Below, in pieces: positions 1-8,732 of a stretch of 36,892 bases of DNA. A program made the translations under genes and the position numbers. A model generated the notes under the pieces. That model was not told the DNA's origin. It saw nothing but the letters and a program-made list of their open reading frames with translations, and ran no database searches. How positions within the stretch are numbered: position 1 is the stretch's first letter; every line of letters begins with the position of its first letter. Where the stretch lies: contig SSEF01000009.1 of assembly GCA_008012175.1 (NCBI GenBank), positions 1 to 36,892 of the forward strand. Reading direction: 5' to 3'. This stretch comes from Candidatus Moraniibacteriota bacterium. GTDB lineage: Bacteria > Patescibacteriota > Minisyncoccia > Moranbacterales > UBA1568.

Positions 1-310
1 CCCGGCCGCGAGAGATCGAGACGCCTTCGCGCCTGAGCCGAGCGGTTTTCGCTACAGCCCCGCCAAAAGCATAGTCCCCGTCTGATCCGTCCGAACGCAC
101 GACTCGATGGCAGGGTACGTCGCGATAGCAGTTTTGCGCCATCGCCGTCCCGACCGCTCGCGCCGCGCTAGGGACGCCAGCCCGCGCCGCGACTTCCCCA
201 TATGTCAAAACGCTGCCTTCAGGAATGCTCGCGACAACCCGGTAGACGGCCTGACGAAAGGGAGAGAGGTCCTTTCCTTCTCTATAGCTCGTTTCAGTCG
301 GGACGCGCAT
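1..310 (-). CDS. O6-alkylguanine-DNA alkyltransferase (MGMT/Ogt family), C-terminus cut by window edge
   Basis: Suicidal repair protein that moves the alkyl group of O6-alkylguanine to its own cysteine. The ORF is missing from the track because it runs off the left edge without a stop. Reading from ATG at 310 it gives the DNA-binding helix-turn-helix core (VLTYGEVAARAG, then ARAVGTAM) and the active-site motif PCHRV with the acceptor Cys at about residue 67, followed by the usual GG and EGV segments. Having Cys rather than Trp in this motif argues for a catalytic enzyme, not an alkyltransferase-like (ATL) protein. Only about 15 residues precede the core, so it is the short form without the N-terminal domain of Ogt. 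It lies 42 nt downstream of the coiled-coil gene on the same strand. No Shine-Dalgarno is visible, and an in-frame CTG upstream is a less likely start. Confidence 0.88.
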   Translation of the reverse strand, partial: MRVPTETSYREGKDLSPFRQAVYRVVASIPEGSVLTYGEVAARAGVPSAARAVGTAMAQNCYRDVPCHRVVRSDGSDGDYAFGGAVAKTARLRREGVSISRGR

Positions 311-352
311 AATCGAACAAGAGTAGCGTTCGGAAGCCAGGTTCCGTCTGTA

Positions 353-1162
353 TTAGTCTTCCTCGAACGCCTGTTTCAGTTCGGCATTGGCGAGCGCGAG
401 GTCGGTCTGACACGTCTTCAGAGCGGTCGCGACACGCGACTTCCGGACCTCGACGCGCTTCTTCGCCTCTTCTTGTAGCCCTTCGGCAGCCTTCTTGTCA
501 TTGGCCAGCTTGGTCCGAGCGGCGGCGAGATCTCCCTTGAAATTCGAGAGAAGGGTCGCCGTGGACAATCCGTCAGCACAGCCCGTCTCGAGCCTGGCGA
601 CTGCTGCCGCAACTGACGACCGGAACGCGTCACGAGCTGATTGCATCGCCGCCTTTCGCTTCGTAACAAGCGCATCAGTCTCTGTCCGGAAGTCGAGGAT
701 AGCCGCATCAATAGCCGCACGACGATCGTCGACCGCCTCCTCTACTCGTTCTTGATAGTCTTCGACCGCATCTTCTTCGTTATCGCCATCGGCACGGAGC
801 GCGAGACGCGTATACCATTCGCCGCGCAGCTGATCGGCCTCTGAACGCGCTTCCTCCAGCTTTGCGTCGCGCTCGTTACGTCCATTCTCGAGGTCCTCAG
901 GAAGCGCATCGAGATATGCCGCGACGGCTGACTCTTTTTCAGCGAGCCTCGACTCAATTTGCGATTTCGTTTCAGCGAACGCCGAACAAAAGGCTTCAGT
1001 GTTCGGAAGTTTCACCGGGTATTTCAGTTTGAGCTCAGAAACTTTCGGCTGAACGGATTGAACTACGCTCGTGACGAGGTCGAGCGGCGCAGCCGAAGCC
1101 GCTGCCGGGAAAACAGCGAGGGCAATCGACGGTACTAAAAGACTAATAACTCGCTTCATCAT
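353..1162 (-). CDS. Secreted coiled-coil protein, second copy of a tandem module
   Basis: Function unknown. A signal peptide (MMKR, hydrophobic stretch, AASAAP cleavage region) is followed by about 240 residues rich in Glu, Arg, Lys and Ala that should form long helices or coiled coils. It is a paralogue of the protein at 1591-2460. Both share an AFC..F segment after the signal peptide, a central block (VEEAVDDRRAAIDAAILDF here, VDAAVETRRVAVDKAIEDF there) and a second cysteine in a G/D-C-A/E-D context. This copy has a third Cys near its end (KTCQTD). The start overlaps the stop region of the upstream small membrane-protein gene by 20 nt, so the two are translationally coupled. ATG at 1159 is an equally possible start. 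Export across the membrane is inferred from the signal peptide. Confidence 0.8.
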   Translation of the reverse strand: MMKRVISLLVPSIALAVFPAAASAAPLDLVTSVVQSVQPKVSELKLKYPVKLPNTEAFCSAFAETKSQIESRLAEKESAVAAYLDALPEDLENGRNERDAKLEEARSEADQLRGEWYTRLALRADGDNEEDAVEDYQERVEEAVDDRRAAIDAAILDFRTETDALVTKRKAAMQSARDAFRSSVAAAVARLETGCADGLSTATLLSNFKGDLAAARTKLANDKKAAEGLQEEAKKRVEVRKSRVATALKTCQTDLALANAELKQAFEED

Positions 1163-1505
1163 AGCTCGTTCCTAATTGCTCCATCACGACGGCCCCATCC
1201 ATGAAACTCTCGCTCTCGCCAGCGTACTCAGCCTCGAGCGCGCCCTCATCGCCCGTGGCTGTCGCTTCGATTTCAGCCATGAGGTTGGCGATCGCCTCAG
1301 CGTCCGACCCGAGATCGGCATCATCTGTTTTGTCAGGAGATGAGAGATTTGTCTCGTCAGCCGTTTCGCCTTGACTCGCCGGCATCGATTGGACCGATGC
1401 CGGTACAACTGACGCGGACCGTTTCAGGCTCCATCCATAATACGCGGCCACGCCAAAGACGCAGACGGCAACGACAGCGATAAGCGCGATCCAGGAACGT
1501 TTCAT
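1143..1505 (-). CDS. Small membrane-anchored acidic protein, second module copy
   Basis: About 120 residues and of unknown function. One N-terminal membrane segment (WIALIAVVAVCVFGVAAYYG) is followed by a Ser/Thr-rich linker and a strongly acidic tail with many Glu, Asp and Ala. The tail is predicted to lie outside the membrane. The track begins at GTG 1520, but ATG 1505 is preferred: a TATACT -10 box ends 6 nt upstream of it, so the mRNA would start at or next to the ATG. Its layout mirrors the 100-residue protein at 2479-2781, and each precedes a secreted coiled-coil gene. The opposite charge character suggests, but does not prove, that the two partners interact. Confidence 0.72.
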   Translation of the reverse strand: MKRSWIALIAVVAVCVFGVAAYYGWSLKRSASVVPASVQSMPASQGETADETNLSSPDKTDDADLGSDAEAIANLMAEIEATATGDEGALEAEYAGESESFMDGAVVMEQLGTSYDEASY

Positions 1506-1511
1506 AGGGTT

Positions 1512-1541
1512 AGTATACACTCTCCTCGGAAGAGATGAAAA
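1512..1541 (-). promoter_or_regulatory. Promoter of the second envelope module, leaderless type
   Basis: On the minus strand a perfect TATACT (1517-1512) lies 6 nt before ATG 1505, with a weak TTTTCA -35 candidate 18 bp upstream that overlaps the terminator U-tract. The expected transcription start coincides with the start codon. Confidence 0.5.
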
Positions 1542-1573
1542 AGCCCGCGGCTCTACGGGCCAATCGGGCTTTT
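1538..1573. terminator. Bidirectional rho-independent terminator
   Basis: AAAAAGCCCG and CGGGCTTTT form a stem around a 17-nt loop, giving a U-tract on either strand. It lies just after the stop of the minus-strand gene ending at 1591 and separates the two tandem modules transcriptionally. Confidence 0.8.
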
Positions 1574-1590
1574 CTTGAAATGACAGCGGG

Positions 1591-2460
1591 CTATTTGCTG
1601 TCGCTTCCCATGGCAGCCCGGAGCTTTTCCGCAGCCGCTTTCACGGTCGACTTGAACGTATCGATCGCTGATTCAATCGCCTTCTTGCGGGTCTCGGCGA
1701 GTGCCTTCACATCGTCACGGATCTTGTCGATCGAGGAGCGATCCTCCTTGAGGGCCTCGCGAGCCGTCTTCATCGCCGCCTGATACTCGGACATGACCGT
1801 CTTCGGATCGACATCGGCCTCGCAGTCGCTCTTGGCCTTGGCCGCGGCCGCATCAGCAGCTGACTTGAACTTCGAGTATGCATCCGCTCCGCCGCTCTTC
1901 CTCGAGGCAACGAGCGCATCGACAGCCGAACGGAAATCTTCGATCGCCTTGTCGACGGCCACGCGACGCGTCTCTACAGCAGCATCGACAGTTTTCTTGA
2001 ACTCGGCAACAGCAGCCTTTTCGGCATCAGTATCAGCCTTTTCATCGAGCTTGGCATAGAGCGCGGTGCGGCGCTCATCCTGAGTGTCGCGCTTCCCGTC
2101 GAGCCACTCGTCGCGATCATCACGACGGTCGGTCCGGCGGCTCGTACGGTTTTCGATCCGCTCCTTCGCATTGTCGGCACGATCGCCCATGCGCTCGTCC
2201 TTGTTGTCGAGCCGCTCAGTGAAGCGAGCGCAGAAAGCGTCCTGGCGTTCATCTTTCCGCTCTTCTTTCTTCTCTTCCCAATTCGCCTTCCGCTCTTCCA
2301 TGGCGGCATTGCGCTCCTCCATCCGCGCCTTGGCTTGTTCGGCACGCTGGGTAAATCGGGTGTTGGCATTCCCCGTCTCGGCCGAGGCCATGAGCGGCGA
2401 CCCGAGGACGGCCGCGAGCGAGAGCGCTGACAAAATGCGTTTCGAGACGATTGTATTCAT
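1591..2460 (-). CDS. Secreted coiled-coil protein, first copy of a tandem module
   Basis: Function unknown. ATG 2460 is preferred to the track start at 2475 because it begins a normal signal peptide (basic start, LSALSLAAVLGSPLMASAE). The mature part has a very highly charged segment rich in Glu, Arg, Lys and Asp (EERKANWEEKKEERKDERQD), then alanine-rich helices. Two cysteines (AFCARF and SDCEAD) match the paralogue at 353-1162, so a disulfide or metal-binding pair is possible after export. The last third repeats a pattern of a basic pair followed by AI..AI.TFKS. It starts 18 nt after the stop of the upstream small membrane-protein gene, so the two are likely one operon, and a strong terminator follows. 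Confidence 0.82.
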   Translation of the reverse strand: MNTIVSKRILSALSLAAVLGSPLMASAETGNANTRFTQRAEQAKARMEERNAAMEERKANWEEKKEERKDERQDAFCARFTERLDNKDERMGDRADNAKERIENRTSRRTDRRDDRDEWLDGKRDTQDERRTALYAKLDEKADTDAEKAAVAEFKKTVDAAVETRRVAVDKAIEDFRSAVDALVASRKSGGADAYSKFKSAADAAAAKAKSDCEADVDPKTVMSEYQAAMKTAREALKEDRSSIDKIRDDVKALAETRKKAIESAIDTFKSTVKAAAEKLRAAMGSDSK

Positions 2461-2478
2461 ACGTAAAGCAATCAATGG

Positions 2479-2781
2479 TTAGTTCCCCTCTTCGATATCG
2501 GACAGCTCATCCTCAGTAAAGGCTGAGAGATCATCGCGATCGGCGATCGCTTCATCGATGAGATCGTCGGCCGCTGTATCCGGATTCACCGCTGTCGGCA
2601 AAGGAGCAGTCACGGTCGACGGTGCGGTCGTCTTTTCTGTGCCCATGGATGGCTTGGATCGGACCATATCATCGCCAGTGTTCGGCTCCCGTCGCATCGC
2701 GAACTGGGAGTAAATGACTGCGAGAATCACCATGATGAGAAACAGGGCGAATCCGAAGCCGAGTATTCTTCTCGGTATCAT
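2479..2781 (-). CDS. Small membrane-anchored acidic protein, first module copy
   Basis: About 100 residues and of unknown function. It begins with two arginines and a hydrophobic segment (ILGFGFALFLIMVILAVIYS), consistent with a single N-terminal membrane anchor. A Pro/Thr/Ala-rich linker follows, then an acidic tail (DDLIDEAIADRDDLSAF). The order and composition match the small protein at 1143-1505. It is the first gene of an apparent operon with the secreted coiled-coil protein. No Shine-Dalgarno is visible before ATG 2781. A TATACT sequence on the minus strand (2856-2851) could be its -10 box, giving a leader of about 65 nt. Confidence 0.72.
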   Translation of the reverse strand: MIPRRILGFGFALFLIMVILAVIYSQFAMRREPNTGDDMVRSKPSMGTEKTTAPSTVTAPLPTAVNPDTAADDLIDEAIADRDDLSAFTEDELSDIEEGN

Positions 2782-2850
2782 ATGTTTTTGTTAGGTAAGC
2801 TTACGTTGGTTACTACGCGCGACCCGGCTGCCCGGACGCGTTTCATCCTC

Positions 2851-2856
2851 AGTATA
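2851..2856 (-). promoter_or_regulatory. Possible -10 box of the first envelope module
   Basis: TATACT on the minus strand within the divergent spacer at 2782-2949. No convincing -35 lies at the right distance. The box sits inside an imperfect inverted repeat (CCTCAG...CTGAGG) that could be an operator. Confidence 0.3.
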
Positions 2857-2949
2857 GCACCTCACTGAGGGGTAGCGGCTTGCAAACGATAGGAGGAGGG
2901 AGTATGTTCGAAGCATTCGCGTGGTCCCTTACCATCCATGGAGGTCGCC

Positions 2950-3360
2950 ATGAGCAAGGCCATGACACTCTTCAGTCGTCCCCTCGCGGCAAGCGCTGTC
3001 GCCCCGGACGAAACCTATGAAGTTTCGCTCCTGAAGAAGCTCCCCCGTTATCAGCCCGACACGGGGACGGTATCCGTCATCGAACACGAGTGGGTGTACA
3101 GCACGATCGTCTCAGCTGTGGCACCCGGGCTTGCAGTCTACGAAGCGCTCCACGAGTACTTCGCCTGGCGGCTCGCGAAAAAGTGGCAGACGCGAAGGCG
3201 CCTCCTCACCCGACGCGATCTGACCCTCGTCGATCTCTTCGCCAGGGATTTGGCCGAGTCAGCGATGCGCCGAGCCGGGACACCGAGCCAGATGATCCAT
3301 GCGATCGTCACCCCTTGGGAACCGGGCTGCATCACGCTCCACTTCCTGGCGCGCCCATGA
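2950..3360 (+). CDS. Hypothetical protein, orphan ORF with strong Shine-Dalgarno
   Basis: About 136 residues, not recognised. ATG 2950 is chosen over the track start at 2938 because GGAGG sits 5 nt before it. The protein has no signal peptide or clear membrane segment. It has a mixed N-terminal half and a basic stretch (KKWQTRRRLLTRRD) in the middle. It is the only plus-strand gene here, divergent from the envelope modules and convergent with uvrB, whose stop lies about 30 nt away. A second strong ribosome-binding site upstream (AGGAGG before ATG 2904) opens a 38-codon overlapping frame ending at 3020, which could act as a leader peptide. Composition resembles the neighbourhood, so it is probably a real gene. 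Confidence 0.62.
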   Translation: MSKAMTLFSRPLAASAVAPDETYEVSLLKKLPRYQPDTGTVSVIEHEWVYSTIVSAVAPGLAVYEALHEYFAWRLAKKWQTRRRLLTRRDLTLVDLFARDLAESAMRRAGTPSQMIHAIVTPWEPGCITLHFLARP

Positions 3361-3383
3361 GGTGCCGAGTCAGGACCAGTTTC

Positions 3384-3418
3384 CCCGACCGCGCTATGCT
3401 GGCCGGGTTTTCTTTTTT
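3384..3418 (+). terminator. Terminator of the orphan ORF, overlapping the 3' end of uvrB
   Basis: CCCGACC and GGCCGGG form a hairpin with one mismatch, followed by TTTTCTTTTTT on the plus strand. It overlaps the last codons of the convergent uvrB. Confidence 0.6.
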
Positions 3419-5445
3419 CCTTTTCCGCCGTCGAGCTGCGCTTCGAGCGCGCGGATCTCGTCGCGGAGGATGGCGGCCGTCTCGAAATCGAGAAGTTTTA
3501 CCGCCGCCTTCATCTCACGCTCCTTGGCGCGGATGATTCTAGCCGGATCCTTGGCAAATCCCTTCGCGTCGAGCGCGAGCGATACCGCGACCGCCTTGTC
3601 ATGCTCGCTCTGCAGCTTTTCAGTGATGTCATGGATGTTCTTGCGAATCGTCTGTGGGGTGATGCCGTGCTCGGCATTGTAGGCGATCTGGAGCGCTCGG
3701 CGCCGCGCCGTCTCGGACAGCGCATAGTCGATCGACCCTGTCACCTGGTCAGCATAGAGCGTCACGCGGCCGAGGACATTGCGCGCCGCGCGGCCGATAA
3801 TCTGGATGAGCGATGTCTCGGAGCGGAGAAATCCTTCTTTGTCCGCATCGAGAATACCGATGAAGGTCACTTCGGGGAGATCCAGCCCTTCACGCAGGAG
3901 ATTCACGCCGACCAGTACGTCGAACTCGCCCTTGCGGAACCGGGTGAGCACCTTGATGCGATCGATCGTCTTCACGTCGCTATGGAGGTACTCGGCTTTC
4001 ACCTCTTTTTCTTTCAGATACTGCGCGAGATCTTCAGCCATCTTTTTCGTCAGAGTCGTAGCAATGACGCGACCGCCCTGCTTCACCTCTTTCTCCGCTT
4101 CCGCGATGAAGTCTCCGATCTGTCCGGGATAGTCCCCATCCGCCCGAATACCGCGGACCGTGACCTCGGGATCAAGGAGCCCAGTCGGACGGATCACCTG
4201 CTCGACGATTTCCGTACTCACCTCGCGCTCATAATCGGCAGGCGTAGCTGAAGTAAAGATGACCGATCCGACGCGTTCCTGAAATTCTTCGTACCGGAGC
4301 GGACGGTTGTCGAGCGCCGACGGCAATCGGAAACCGAACTCGACGAGCGTTTTCTTCCGGGCCTGATCGCCGTTGTACATGCCCCGGAGCTGGGGCAGGG
4401 TCACGTGCGACTCGTCGATAATGGTCAGAAAATCCGGCGTCCCGTCGGGAAGATGCGGAAAATAGGAAAGGAGCGTCTCAGGTGGCTCACCTGCTGCCTT
4501 GCCCGAGAGATGCCGCGAGTAGTTCTCGATCCCCGAGCAGTAGCCGATCTCGTCGATCATCGCGAGGTCGTAGTGAGTGCGCCGTTTCAGCCGCTCCGCT
4601 TCGAGGAGCTTCCCTTCCTGCTGAAACTTCGCGAGCTGCTCCCCGAGCTCCTCGCGGATGGTGACGAGCGCGCGTTCCTTCTTGTCGTCGTCGGTGATGA
4701 AATGCTTGGTCGGAAACAGAATGATCGCTTCCTCCTCGCGGAGAATCGCCTGCGAGACCGGATCGATTTTGGTGATAGCCACGATCCGATTGCCACCGAG
4801 CTCGATGGAATAGATGAATTTCTCAGAAATCGGCATCACCTCGATCCGGTTGCCAATCGAGCGAAAGTGTCCCGGCAGAATATCGGCATTCGTCCGCTCG
4901 AAGAAAATCGCGATGAGGCGGCGCATGAGCGCCTCGCGCGTGACTTCCTCCCCAACTGCCAGTCGGATATTTTCACGGAGGTACTCCTCGGGACTGCCGA
5001 GGCCATAGATGCACGAAACGCTCGCGACGATGATCACATCTTTCCGAGTCAGGAGCGATTGGGTCGAGGCATGACGGAGCCGATCGATCTCTTCGTTGAT
5101 GGACGCGTCTTTCTCGATATAGGTATCCGTCACCGGCATATACGCCTCAGGCTGATAGAAGTCATAGTATGAGACGAAATAATGCACGGCTGCATCTGGG
5201 AGGAACTCCTCGAATTCTTGGGCGAGCTGGGCGGCGAGCGTCTTGTTATGAGCGATGACGAGCGCGGGCTTGCCGATATTCGCGATCGTGTTCGCCATCG
5301 TGAACGTCTTGCCGGACCCCGTCACGCCGAGGAGCGTCTGGAACCGGCTCCCCCGCCCGAGACCGGCCGTGAGCGCAGCAATGGCCTTCGGCTGATCGCC
5401 AGCTGGCGGCCAATCGGATTTGAGCTGAAAGGGAGACTGATGCAT
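3394..5445 (-). CDS. uvrB: Excinuclease ABC subunit B
   Basis: Helicase-like damage-verification subunit of nucleotide excision repair. It is loaded onto lesions by UvrA and recruits UvrC for incision. The 683 residues match the usual full length. Visible are the Walker A motif GVTGSGKT near residue 40, the beta-hairpin region with SYYDFYQPEAY, the helicase motifs (DESH; SATPADYE; GLDLPEV; IGRAARN) and the C-terminal UVR motif (DFETAAILRDEIRALE) that binds UvrC. ATG 5445 starts the conserved N-terminus F.L.S...P.GDQPKAI. A TTCTCA-17-TATACT promoter ends 14 nt upstream, so the mRNA leader is only about 7 nt and no Shine-Dalgarno is present. The gene appears complete. Confidence 0.97.
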   Translation of the reverse strand: MHQSPFQLKSDWPPAGDQPKAIAALTAGLGRGSRFQTLLGVTGSGKTFTMANTIANIGKPALVIAHNKTLAAQLAQEFEEFLPDAAVHYFVSYYDFYQPEAYMPVTDTYIEKDASINEEIDRLRHASTQSLLTRKDVIIVASVSCIYGLGSPEEYLRENIRLAVGEEVTREALMRRLIAIFFERTNADILPGHFRSIGNRIEVMPISEKFIYSIELGGNRIVAITKIDPVSQAILREEEAIILFPTKHFITDDDKKERALVTIREELGEQLAKFQQEGKLLEAERLKRRTHYDLAMIDEIGYCSGIENYSRHLSGKAAGEPPETLLSYFPHLPDGTPDFLTIIDESHVTLPQLRGMYNGDQARKKTLVEFGFRLPSALDNRPLRYEEFQERVGSVIFTSATPADYEREVSTEIVEQVIRPTGLLDPEVTVRGIRADGDYPGQIGDFIAEAEKEVKQGGRVIATTLTKKMAEDLAQYLKEKEVKAEYLHSDVKTIDRIKVLTRFRKGEFDVLVGVNLLREGLDLPEVTFIGILDADKEGFLRSETSLIQIIGRAARNVLGRVTLYADQVTGSIDYALSETARRRALQIAYNAEHGITPQTIRKNIHDITEKLQSEHDKAVAVSLALDAKGFAKDPARIIRAKEREMKAAVKLLDFETAAILRDEIRALEAQLDGGKGKKKTRPA

Positions 5446-5459
5446 AGAGGTAGGCCGAA

Positions 5460-5488
5460 AGTATATCCGAGGACGCTATTTCTGAGAA
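5460..5488 (-). promoter_or_regulatory. uvrB promoter
   Basis: On the minus strand TTCTCA (5488-5483), a 17-bp spacer and TATACT (5465-5460). The predicted start is about 7 nt before ATG 5445. No SOS box was recognised. Confidence 0.55.
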
Positions 5489-6171
5489 GTCAGGCCGGAT
5501 AGCCAGGCCGCCAGCCGACGATAGAGATGAAGGCCGCGTCGACGATGCACATAGAGAAAGACGAGGCCGCCGAGGATGAGCATCGTGAGGAGCGCACCGA
5601 CACCGAAACGGATGCGCTCGACATCCATGAAGAAGGCACGGAGCGCGCGAACGCCGTAGTACCCAGCAAAGGCGTAGAAGAGATCTTTGCAGAAATTGCC
5701 CGCATACGAGGCGATAAGAAAGACGCGGGTCCGGATCCGGACGACACCAGCCGCGATCGAAACGAGAATGGTCGGAACGAATGGAATGACGCGAAGCATA
5801 AAGAGGAGTGCACCGTCACGCCAGGGGCTGCCATTGAATTTTTGCCCGATACGCTCGACATCAGCATGAGCGAGCCCGAGGTAGCGACCGAACCGACCGA
5901 CGACGACATCTTCAAGCTTGTCACCAAGCGTGTAATAGATGAAAGATCCGATGAGCTTGCCGATGTTGCCGAGGATCACGAGCCAGACAAGAAAGAAGGT
6001 TGTCCGCCCCTCGAGCTGAGCAAAAAAGCCTGCCGTCGTCATCACGAGCATCGACGGAATCGGCGCGACTATTTCCTCGGCCAGCGCTCCAAAGAACGCA
6101 AACAACTCGAGCGGGACGATCGCCGCCAATTCTCGGATACCCGTCTCAATCTCGCGAAGCCAGAGATGCAT
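5476..6171 (-). CDS. VTT/DedA-like (SNARE-associated) membrane protein
   Basis: Integral membrane protein of 231 residues from the VTT (DedA/TMEM41-like) family. Bacterial members are linked to undecaprenyl-phosphate or phospholipid recycling and membrane potential. Family signatures are EEIVAPIPSMLVMTTAGF early on, then G...G..I.Y..G (LGNIGKLIGSFIYYTLG), and F..R.IPF.....S..AG (FMLRVIPFVPTILVSIAAG). A last hydrophobic helix ends in a basic tail (LYVHRRRG). The two Arg and the EE/PIP segment are the conserved polar re-entrant-loop residues of the family. It starts 14 nt after the stop of the upstream 107-residue gene, suggesting one transcript. Confidence 0.88.
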   Translation of the reverse strand: MHLWLREIETGIRELAAIVPLELFAFFGALAEEIVAPIPSMLVMTTAGFFAQLEGRTTFFLVWLVILGNIGKLIGSFIYYTLGDKLEDVVVGRFGRYLGLAHADVERIGQKFNGSPWRDGALLFMLRVIPFVPTILVSIAAGVVRIRTRVFLIASYAGNFCKDLFYAFAGYYGVRALRAFFMDVERIRFGVGALLTMLILGGLVFLYVHRRRGLHLYRRLAAWLSGLTSQK

Positions 6172-6185
6172 GCCGAAAGAAGATG

Positions 6186-6509
6186 CTAGAGCGCCCGATT
6201 GAACGCATCGTCAATGCGGTCGAGGTCTTTGTGCTCGAGACCGAGCTTGGCCGCATCCTCGCGAAGCTCGCCCATGAATTCCTCCTTTTCACGGAGATTC
6301 ATGCCGCGAGACAGTCCCTGCTGATCCATATGGCCCTCGGCCGCCGCTTCGACAATGGCGCGCTCACGCTCATTGAGTCCTTCGCGGCGGAGACGACCGA
6401 GGACGTCTTTTTCGAGCTCACGCTTGGTCACATGGCCATAGGCGCGCGGGGTTACGCCAGATGAAGAGACAGATGGCTTTGGCTTGGAACTCGGGAAAAA
6501 AAGAGACAT
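6186..6509 (-). CDS. Hypothetical small charged protein
   Basis: About 107 residues from ATG 6509. The track start at 6602 adds 31 residues with no coding character that overlap the divergent promoter. A short Ser/Pro-rich head (MSLFFPSSKPKPSVSSSG) is followed by an entirely helical, charged region (TKRELEKDVLGRLRREGLNERERAIVE and on). No membrane segment or known domain was recognised. It is cytosolic by inference. It precedes the VTT protein with a 14-nt gap. Confidence 0.66.
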   Translation of the reverse strand: MSLFFPSSKPKPSVSSSGVTPRAYGHVTKRELEKDVLGRLRREGLNERERAIVEAAAEGHMDQQGLSRGMNLREKEEFMGELREDAAKLGLEHKDLDRIDDAFNRAL

Positions 6510-6567
6510 ATTGTTTAGACGCATTAATGTGACTGACGATTCTATTCTACACCCTTTTGGCTTTCCA

Positions 6568-6596
6568 TAGACATTTCCCTGGCTTTTCCGTATAAT
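6568..6596 (+). promoter_or_regulatory. Promoter of the tRNA cluster
   Basis: TAGACA (6568-6573), a 17-bp spacer and a perfect TATAAT (6591-6596), 19 nt before the 5' end of tRNA-Ala. Confidence 0.78.
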
Positions 6597-6615
6597 CGCC
6601 ATTGACGTTACATCT

Positions 6616-6688
6616 GGGCCGTTAGCTTAGTTGGTAGAGCGCCGCGTTTGCAACGCGGAGGTCGCCGGTTCGAATCCGGCACGGTCCA
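6616..6688 (+). tRNA. tRNA-Ala (TGC)
   Basis: Full cloverleaf. The anticodon loop TTTGCAA reads TGC. The acceptor stem has the G3:U70 pair that defines alanine tRNAs, and the discriminator is A. The genome does not encode the CCA (CC then G follows). Confidence 0.97.
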
Positions 6689-6776
6689 CCGGGGAAAAGA
6701 AACGATAGATCCCTTGAAAGAGGGCTGGGGCTTGATTGTTTCCGCCAGCTATTGTAGGATTCAGGGGCTTTTCAGC

Positions 6777-6850
6777 GGGTGATTAGCTCAGGTGGTTAGA
6801 GCGCGACACTGATAATGTCGAGGTCCCAAGTTCGAGTCTTGGATCACCCA
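6777..6850 (+). tRNA. tRNA-Ile (GAT)
   Basis: Full cloverleaf with acceptor GGGTGAT paired to ATCACCC, anticodon loop CTGATAA reading GAT, and discriminator A. No encoded CCA. Confidence 0.97.
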
Positions 6851-6875
6851 CAGGAGCCAGTCTCCACCAAAATAC

Positions 6876-6949
6876 AGCGGGGTAGAGCAGTCTGGCAGCT
6901 CGCTTGGCTCATAACCAAGAGGTCGGTGGTTCAAATCCACCCCCCGCAA
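6876..6949 (+). tRNA. Initiator tRNA-fMet (CAT)
   Basis: Anticodon loop CTCATAA reads CAT. Initiator marks are an unpaired 1:72 position (A1, A72) beside the GCGGGG/CCCCGC acceptor stem, and an A11:U24 pair in a D-arm (GAGCAGTCTGGCAGCTC) very like that of E. coli fMet. The anticodon stem is CTTGG/CCAAG, so the first of the three usual G:C pairs (29:41) is T:A. No CCA is encoded. Confidence 0.9.
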
Positions 6950-7611: not shown

Positions 7612-7685
7612 GGGGGCGTAGCTCAGCTGGTTAGAGCGTCTGCCTGTCACGCAGAAGGTCACGGGTTCGAGTCCCGCCGTCCCCG
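7612..7685 (+). tRNA. tRNA-Asp (GTC)
   Basis: Full cloverleaf with anticodon loop CTGTCAC reading GTC and the G73 discriminator expected for Asp. The acceptor stem GGGGGCG/CGTCCCC has a G5:U68 pair. No CCA is encoded. Confidence 0.96.
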
Positions 7686-7707
7686 CTCAAATAGAGATCG
7701 TATCAAT

Positions 7708-7851
7708 ATGTTCACTGTGAGGGATTTCTTCCGCTCCGTCGTCCTCGGTGTCCTCGTCGGCTGGCTTCTCGTATCCATTCACGATCCGACACACAAGCGC
7801 TTCGACTTCAAGGTGACTGACGCTATCTTTATAGAACGGACTATAGGATAG
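7708..7851 (+). CDS. Possible 47-residue single-pass membrane protein
   Basis: Too short for the ORF track. ATG 7708 opens 47 codons ending at TAG 7849-7851. The product has a basic amphipathic head, one hydrophobic segment (VVLGVLVGWLLVSI) and a polar tail. Codons (GTC, CTC, CGC, TTC) fit the local GC-rich bias. A strong terminator begins 18 nt after the stop. There is no Shine-Dalgarno. The competing minus-strand ORF (7687-7923) would have to read through that terminator. Function unknown. Confidence 0.38.
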   Translation: MFTVRDFFRSVVLGVLVGWLLVSIHDPTHKRFDFKVTDAIFIERTIG

Positions 7852-7868
7852 GCGCGGTTGCGAAGAAT

Positions 7869-7899
7869 AAAAAAAAAACGGCCGGCCGGCCGCTTTTTT
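7869..7899. terminator. Bidirectional terminator
   Basis: The perfect 14-bp palindrome CGGCCGGCCGGCCG is flanked by a run of A on the left and TTTTTT on the right, so it can terminate from both sides. It ends the tRNA-Asp side and the ferric-reductase-like gene on the minus strand. Confidence 0.85.
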
Positions 7900-7919
7900 A
7901 TCGGAGAGCCGCTCGCCCC

Positions 7920-8732
7920 TCACCAGACCCAGCGCAGCGTGACAAAAAAATATCCGGCTGCGAGAAGCGCAAAAGATGCAAGGAAAAATCTTCGGCCACG
8001 GGTTCGAAGGACCAGATCGGTTGAGATTTCTTTAGAGACGATTCCGATATTCTTGAAGAGAAAGAGCGTTTCATACAGCCGAACAAGCACCACCCATCCG
8101 AGGAACAGGCCGACATAGAGGCCCAGCCCGGGCATCCATGGATTGGCAAGCTCGAGTGTCGGGGCAGCCGGCGCCTTGGTCAGCCACTTCACCCAGCCAG
8201 CCCACTTCATGTCGAAAACGTGGATCACAGCGAGGAGAATAACGAGGCGCATCCCCCAGCGTTGCAGGAACCACCAGCGCGCTGGACCAAGCAGGCCGAT
8301 GATCTTTTGAAACGATATGACGAAGAGAAATACGAGGAGGACGATCCCGACCAGGCCAGCAGCAAATTCCGCCTCAGCGAATGAATACCATTCGGCTGGA
8401 AATTTCTTCGGGAGAGCAGCATACGAGATGATCGCGTGCGCCGCGATGAAAAACGCGCCGACGATGCCGAGCTCTTTCCGGAGCCCGAGCCATTTATCGA
8501 ATCGGTCGAAGTAACGCGTGATCGGCCCGACGAGGAACGTCAGCGCGAGCATCACCATACCGACGCCAGCGAGCGCCTTGTTCGGGACGTAGAGCATGTC
8601 GGCAGTCGGTGGCGCATCGAAATAGTAGCCGCGCCGCACCAAGAGGTATGAACTGAAGAGCACGAAGAGAATGAGCGCTACGAACAGGGTGATGAAATAA
8701 TCCCGTCCACTGAATGGCTTATGCCCTTCCAT
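7920..8732 (-). CDS. Ferric-reductase-like / MsrQ-like haem membrane protein
   Basis: 270 residues with about seven or eight hydrophobic helices. It resembles the ferric reductase-like transmembrane domain that also occurs in MsrQ (YedZ), which carries electrons on haem b through the membrane. The signature is NKALAGVG, then LTFLVGPI.R, then RKELGIVGAFFIAAHA, whose His and a second His in the helix LAVIHVF are candidate haem ligands. No NAD- or FAD-binding domain is fused, so electrons must come from another carrier. MsrP is not in the window, so a sulfoxide-reductase partnership is unproven. A TATAAT box 8 nt before ATG 8732 implies a nearly leaderless mRNA. Confidence 0.75.
   Translation of the reverse strand: MEGHKPFSGRDYFITLFVALILFVLFSSYLLVRRGYYFDAPPTADMLYVPNKALAGVGMVMLALTFLVGPITRYFDRFDKWLGLRKELGIVGAFFIAAHAIISYAALPKKFPAEWYSFAEAEFAAGLVGIVLLVFLFVISFQKIIGLLGPARWWFLQRWGMRLVILLAVIHVFDMKWAGWVKWLTKAPAAPTLELANPWMPGLGLYVGLFLGWVVLVRLYETLFLFKNIGIVSKEISTDLVLRTRGRRFFLASFALLAAGYFFVTLRWVW

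Follow-up and report, generated by a model that had tools for sequence, protein, structure and literature searches.

The double module and its surroundings

The window, that is the whole stretch of 36,892 nucleotides analysed here, corresponds to contig C26 of a Candidatus Moraniibacteriota bin (1.02 Mb, reported contamination 3%). It hosts two consecutive gene pairs (Table 1), in each of which a gene for an anchored protein, hereafter the partner, lies upstream of a gene for an exported helical protein, hereafter the coil, carrying two Cys residues about 136 positions apart. The coil 2 gene starts 20 bp inside the partner 2 gene. The four minus-strand genes, and the anchor-then-coil order occurring twice, had been proposed by the original prediction, made from the DNA letters, and all were found.

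Table 1. Features of the double module in the window
Feature	Position	Strand	Description or basis
Partner 1 (P0004)	2479-2781	-	100 aa; N-terminal TM anchor, linker, acidic tail
Coil 1 (P0002)	1591-2460	-	289 aa; signal peptide and helical hairpin
Partner 2 (P0003)	1143-1505	-	120 aa; C-terminal end ...LGTSYDEASY
Coil 2 (P0001), paralogue of coil 1	353-1162	-	269 aa
Codon of invariant Cys77, coil 1	2230-2232	-	alignments
Codon of Cys59, coil 2 (equivalent of Cys77 of coil 1)	986-988	-	alignments
Codon of invariant Cys213, coil 1	1822-1824	-	alignments; spacing 136
Codon of Cys195, coil 2 (equivalent of Cys213 of coil 1)	578-580	-	alignments
Terminator-like hairpin followed by a T run, between the pairs	1542-1561	-	
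Promoter-like -35/-10 of pair 2 (TTTTCA-18-TATACT)	1512-1541	-	
Extended -10-like element of pair 1, TGCTATACT	2851-2859	-	sequence; enrichment of TGnTATA[AC]T in homologous leaders

The double module is flanked upstream by uvrB and a VTT-domain gene, and downstream by an ogt/ATL-like gene. In several Candidatus Moraniibacteriota relatives carrying the locus the order is uvrB, partner, coil, (ogt), (YdjC), uvrA. A 140-aa ORF of opposite orientation (2938-3360, plus strand) lies between uvrB and pair 1. The proximity of uvrA, uvrB and ogt in Moranbacteria, and of dinB, SRAP, recO or ruv genes elsewhere, is suggestive of a DNA-repair link, but at about 8 neighbours per locus such genes are roughly estimated to occur at chance level, and the link was not adopted. 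Judged by eye from the sequence, a DinB-like polymerase gene adjoins the module at loci L106, L114 and L119, and a SRAP/YedK-like gene is also found nearby at L106. At L110 the coil gene is directly followed by a frame of tandem RKLPRSWIWL-like repeats (7656-7934).

Pfam and NCBIfam yielded no family scoring above cut-off for any of the four proteins, and sequence searches of the PDB assigned the module proteins to no family, the matches being generic coiled coils. An identity with apolipoprotein A1/A4/E (PF01442) was discarded, the score (19.9 bits against a cut-off of 90) being below the curated threshold.

The same four genes reside, beside a second uvrB, on contig C18 of the same bin. Positions 1-7069 of C18 dovetail with positions 1-6922 of the window at 75-88% DNA identity, and uvrB is found on both. 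The C18 copy (88%) was rejected as a source of third and fourth module copies, since it dovetails with the window end together with uvrB; C18 and C26 probably derive from two related organisms mixed in one bin. Codon comparison of the two contigs yielded dN/dS values of 0.17 for partner 1, 0.07 for coil 1, 0.19 for partner 2 and 0.11 for coil 2 (0.04 for uvrB), and all four genes are therefore under purifying selection.

Coil 1 and coil 2 are homologous, as had been proposed (BLASTP E 7e-20, 30% identity over 221 aa). In a quick tree, however, coil 2 groups with the coil of L047 (support 97) and coil 1 with that of L042 (support 81), and a recent tandem duplication is thus not supported; by this tree the window coils are old paralogues, and not each other's closest relatives. 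For this reason, and because the terminal motif described below is kept only in partner 2, the two copies have probably diverged in function.

The coil and partner families

At E <= 1e-3 the coil profile detected members in 65 of the order's 131 genomes; coiled-coil composition inflates E-values of this kind. Within a 380-genome sample of the phylum, unevenly drawn, 35 genomes scored at E <= 1e-3, 23 of them at E <= 1e-16. Genome contigs were searched with a narrower coil alignment (A2). Coils occur in further orders as well, a Saccharibacterium among them. Both Cys residues are invariant in an alignment of 24 diverse coils, and at partnered loci their spacing is 136 residues in 65 of 76 cases, and 137 in 8. 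Such near-constant spacing argues that these are true relatives, rather than coiled coils retrieved by chance.

The AlphaFold2 model of coil 1, built on 15 sequences (mean pLDDT 85, pTM of the hairpin only 0.61), features helices at residues 32-141, 145-214, 219-244 and 247-284. Cys77 lies 66 residues before the turn near residue 143, and Cys213 lies 70 residues after it. As the predicted turn falls midway between the two invariant Cys, a disulfide stapling the antiparallel hairpin is likely. The genome encodes two DsbA-like Thioredoxin_4 proteins; enrichment of a thiol-disulfide oxidoreductase family has been described for CPR (PMC6744442). A Foldseek search of the PDB with the coil model returned no significant relative.

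Partner 1 and partner 2 share no BLAST similarity; both fit one partner profile, in whose alignment both were included. The C18 partners, which were outside that alignment, match the profile at 9e-18 and 1e-17. In the partner it is the tail that is conserved, a linker and an amphipathic helix usually ending in Y-D-E-N-x-(F/L/Y). In the prediction for partner 2 a TM helix (2-31) is followed by a disordered linker and a helix at 68-114. The terminal motif, in a related form, is present in partner 2, and has been lost or altered in several lineages. It is absent in partner 1, which is shorter than the partner family by ~15 C-terminal residues, in C26 and C18 alike. The original prediction, in which the two pairs were alike, needs correction on this point. 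Related sequences make the following figures not fully independent: hydrophobic residues recur in 46 partner tails with a periodicity of ~3.5-3.6 residues (peak 3.6; column-shuffle p 0.002 at 3.5), and 58 of the 76 partners have F, L, Y, I, V or M as their last residue, compared with 105 of 370 background proteins.

In contrast to the tail, the anchor varies. Classes were assigned by simple sequence patterns, and a few cases by eye. Moranbacteria partners, both window ones included, and others have a plain N-terminal TM anchor; the window partners begin at the TM segment, leaving only 3-6 cytosolic residues. A lipobox was recognized at L127, L128, L144-146, L148, L152 and L154 (L156 by eye), and a prepilin-like GF...E anchor at 15 loci. 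Pfam N_methyl (PF07963) scores above cut-off at L171 and L184, and below cut-off at others; the class III signal G|F...E of N_methyl is missing in P0003 and P0004. A long cytosolic stretch marks the partners of L049, L168, L172, L173 and L179 (L174 by eye). At L048 and in genome G369 (L117, L122) a longer partner with a cytosolic domain is encoded directly behind an ECF sigma gene, which it overlaps or abuts; at L121 a sigma gene lies just downstream of the module. The sigma genes match Pfam sigma r2/r4. No Pfam anti-sigma domain was found above cut-off in the sigma-linked long partners (RskA_C 11.4 versus 29.4 bits), and their designation as anti-sigma-like rests on operon position and topology.

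Partner and coil travel together, as had been anticipated for an envelope pair. Among 103 non-redundant coil loci the partner is found directly upstream in 82 (77 by script, the second pair of L002, L024, L028, L044 and L174 by eye) and fused in 1; 3 loci are cut by the contig end, and 17 lack a partner. The two genes usually overlap by ~11-60 bp. Conversely, each of the 31 partner-profile hits with E <= 7e-7 in the order abuts a coil gene, weaker hits being matches to the TM stretch. The occurrence of coils deprived of the acidic partner had been indicated as evidence against the pairing. Such coils do exist, but a single diverged clade (support 100) accounts for 15 of the 17; its 17 rows comprise these 15 loci, whose upstream regions are intact, and 2 at contig edges. 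The remaining two partnerless coils are those of L091 and L158. Since 15 of 17 cluster in this way, partner loss in the clade appears in the quick tree to be essentially one event.

Genome G490 (L185) encodes partner and coil in overlapping genes after clpP. In G761 (L186), of the same genus, they are joined, again after clpP, in one 343-aa ORF, residues 3-115 of which match the G490 partner (1e-19) and residues 110-342 the coil (6e-66). The signal peptide of the coil has been lost in the fusion, and no second hydrophobic segment is left at that place. This fusion is the strongest evidence that the two proteins belong together outside the membrane.

Charge is not supported as the basis of the association. 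The original prediction had taken acidic tail and charged coil as the basis of binding. Over 76 pairs, coils are less positive where tails are more acidic (rho +0.47), the opposite of what complementarity requires; shared composition would produce the correlation seen with overall coil charge (-0.61). Strong charge is typical of the coils of Moranbacteria, and is slight or missing elsewhere. The association of partner and coil is thus supported by co-occurrence and fusion, and not by charge complementarity.

A putative membrane-tethered ectodomain

Co-occurrence, gene order, fusion, Cys invariance, predicted hairpin and tail periodicity, all established by computation, can be accommodated in a single scheme, in which each pair forms a two-piece, membrane-tethered helical ectodomain, the hairpin being docked on the helix of the anchor. 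We regard this scheme as fairly probable. The partner would sit in the cytoplasmic membrane with the N-terminus in and the C-terminus out, and display outside a flexible linker and then the amphipathic helix, usually with the Y-D-E-N-x-(F/L/Y) terminus. The coil, exported by its signal peptide, would adopt the form of a long helical hairpin in which a disulfide joins the two invariant Cys as a staple, dock on the helix of the anchor, and so be kept at the outer face of the membrane. According to this scheme the anchor is exchangeable (TM segment, lipobox, prepilin-like signal, sigma-linked long form, direct fusion), docking tail and hairpin making up the conserved unit.

Any role ascribed to such an ectodomain, be it sensing, scaffolding, or contact with a host or with the cell wall, is a guess. 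Because two lineages couple the module to an ECF sigma gene, a sensory or regulatory function is plausible and is the one to which we lean. Units made of an ECF sigma factor, a TM anti-sigma factor and an extracytoplasmic sensor exist, CnrH-CnrY-CnrX being the type. As in these, sigma factor, TM protein and exported helical protein are encoded in one operon in two module lineages; in contrast, the window and most members of the module family lack both the sigma gene and any cytosolic domain, and no match to Pfam anti-sigma or metal-sensor families was found in module proteins. At L117 (2317-4358) and L048 (5808-7648) an ECF sigma gene, a TM protein with a cytosolic domain and a module-like tail, and a coil follow one another, and it is possible that these arrays are sigma/anti-sigma/sensor operons.

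The module might then be the remnant, or the portable half, of an ancestral ECF sigma/TM anti-sigma/extracytoplasmic helical sensor unit, from which the sigma factor and the cytosolic domain have disappeared, or become separate, in most lineages, the window included. The loci L048, L117 and L122, where sigma gene, long partner and coil are adjacent, and L121, with sigma downstream, speak for this hypothesis. Both the descent and the loss it implies are nevertheless unlikely: only 2-3 of ~100 loci are sigma-linked, the RskA_C score of the long partners falls short of its cut-off, and the window partners are nearly devoid of cytosolic residues.

Improbable is also the hypothesis that the module is an accessory of a type IV pilus or pseudopilus, the partner being a minor pilin which brings the coil to the pilus. 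Type IV pili are widespread in CPR (PMC6744442), and the 15 prepilin-like partners, two of them above the N_methyl cut-off, resemble pilins at the N-terminus. Yet, what is conserved in the partner is the C-terminal helix with its motif, and not a pilin head; most partners, those of the window included, use other anchors, plain TM segments in Moranbacteria and lipoboxes in other lineages, and no pilus genes were recognized next to the modules inspected. Least probable of all is a free secreted helical protein (an envelope chaperone or stress protein) with a merely co-transcribed small gene, a reading to which the partnerless clade and the weak apolipoprotein-like amphipathic-helix match lend some credit, but which is at odds with the fusion lacking a signal peptide, the near-obligate pairing, and the periodicity and conserved terminus of the tail.

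A mechanistic analogue of the docked hairpin, and only an analogue, may be seen in SteB-RipA of Mycobacterium/Corynebacterium, in which a single-TM protein binds the helical coiled-coil hairpin of a secreted protein outside the membrane (PMC12977500). The complex (PDB 9hmx) ranked fifth in the Foldseek search with the coil model, with non-significant values (E 0.63, TM 0.26-0.37). The two systems share a TM protein, a coiled-coil hairpin, and genes for envelope proteins. RipA, however, carries an NlpC/P60 hydrolase domain, whereas P0001 and P0002 lack a peptidoglycan hydrolase domain and the hairpin fills the coil protein; SteB is a 33 kDa folded homodimer, while the partner described here is ~100 aa long.

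Among the protein families enriched in Patescibacteria, many lack annotation and are associated with membranes (PMC6744442). The module looks like an undescribed cell-surface device of this very large group of minute symbionts, is marked by a sequence signature (the Cys-136-Cys hairpin and the C-terminal motif of the partner), and spans many orders. More tentatively, it could serve the whole phylum as a hitherto undescribed module of extracytoplasmic signalling or docking, a docking helix and a disulfide hairpin mounted on interchangeable anchors (TM, lipid, pilin-like, anti-sigma), with lineage-specific outputs. Natural variants, either fused, lipoprotein, prepilin-like or sigma-linked, make the hypotheses testable, and the sigma-linked and fused forms in particular offer direct mechanistic clues beyond what the window alone gives. 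The matter bears on how Patescibacteria epibionts meet their hosts.

Putative transcription signals and a leader hairpin

A terminator between the pairs and a promoter for each of them had also been predicted. The former corresponds to the terminator-like hairpin of Table 1. As to the latter, the -35/-10 match upstream of pair 2 is of a kind expected once by chance; of 48 homologous leaders 19 contain TGnTATA[AC]T, where shuffles give 0.5, and this enrichment makes separate promoters for the two pairs credible.

The 5' leader repeatedly contains, downstream of the -10 element, a hairpin whose stem varies and whose apical loop, (A/T/G)GGTCG, is conserved. This hairpin lies ~45-75 nt before the partner start at L007, L008, L009, L016, L018, L034, L074, L077, L079 and L081, and is also present at L044 (5965) and L046 (6600); loop lengths shift the register of the alignment. 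No Rfam family matches it. Intergenic GGTCG hairpins number 12 in 485 kb of loci, 5 of which are upstream of the module. The hairpin may be an unrecognised leader element. In the leader of pair 1 in the window (2811-2845, minus strand) GGGTCG falls inside a possible hairpin, and the minimum-energy fold keeps it out of the loop.
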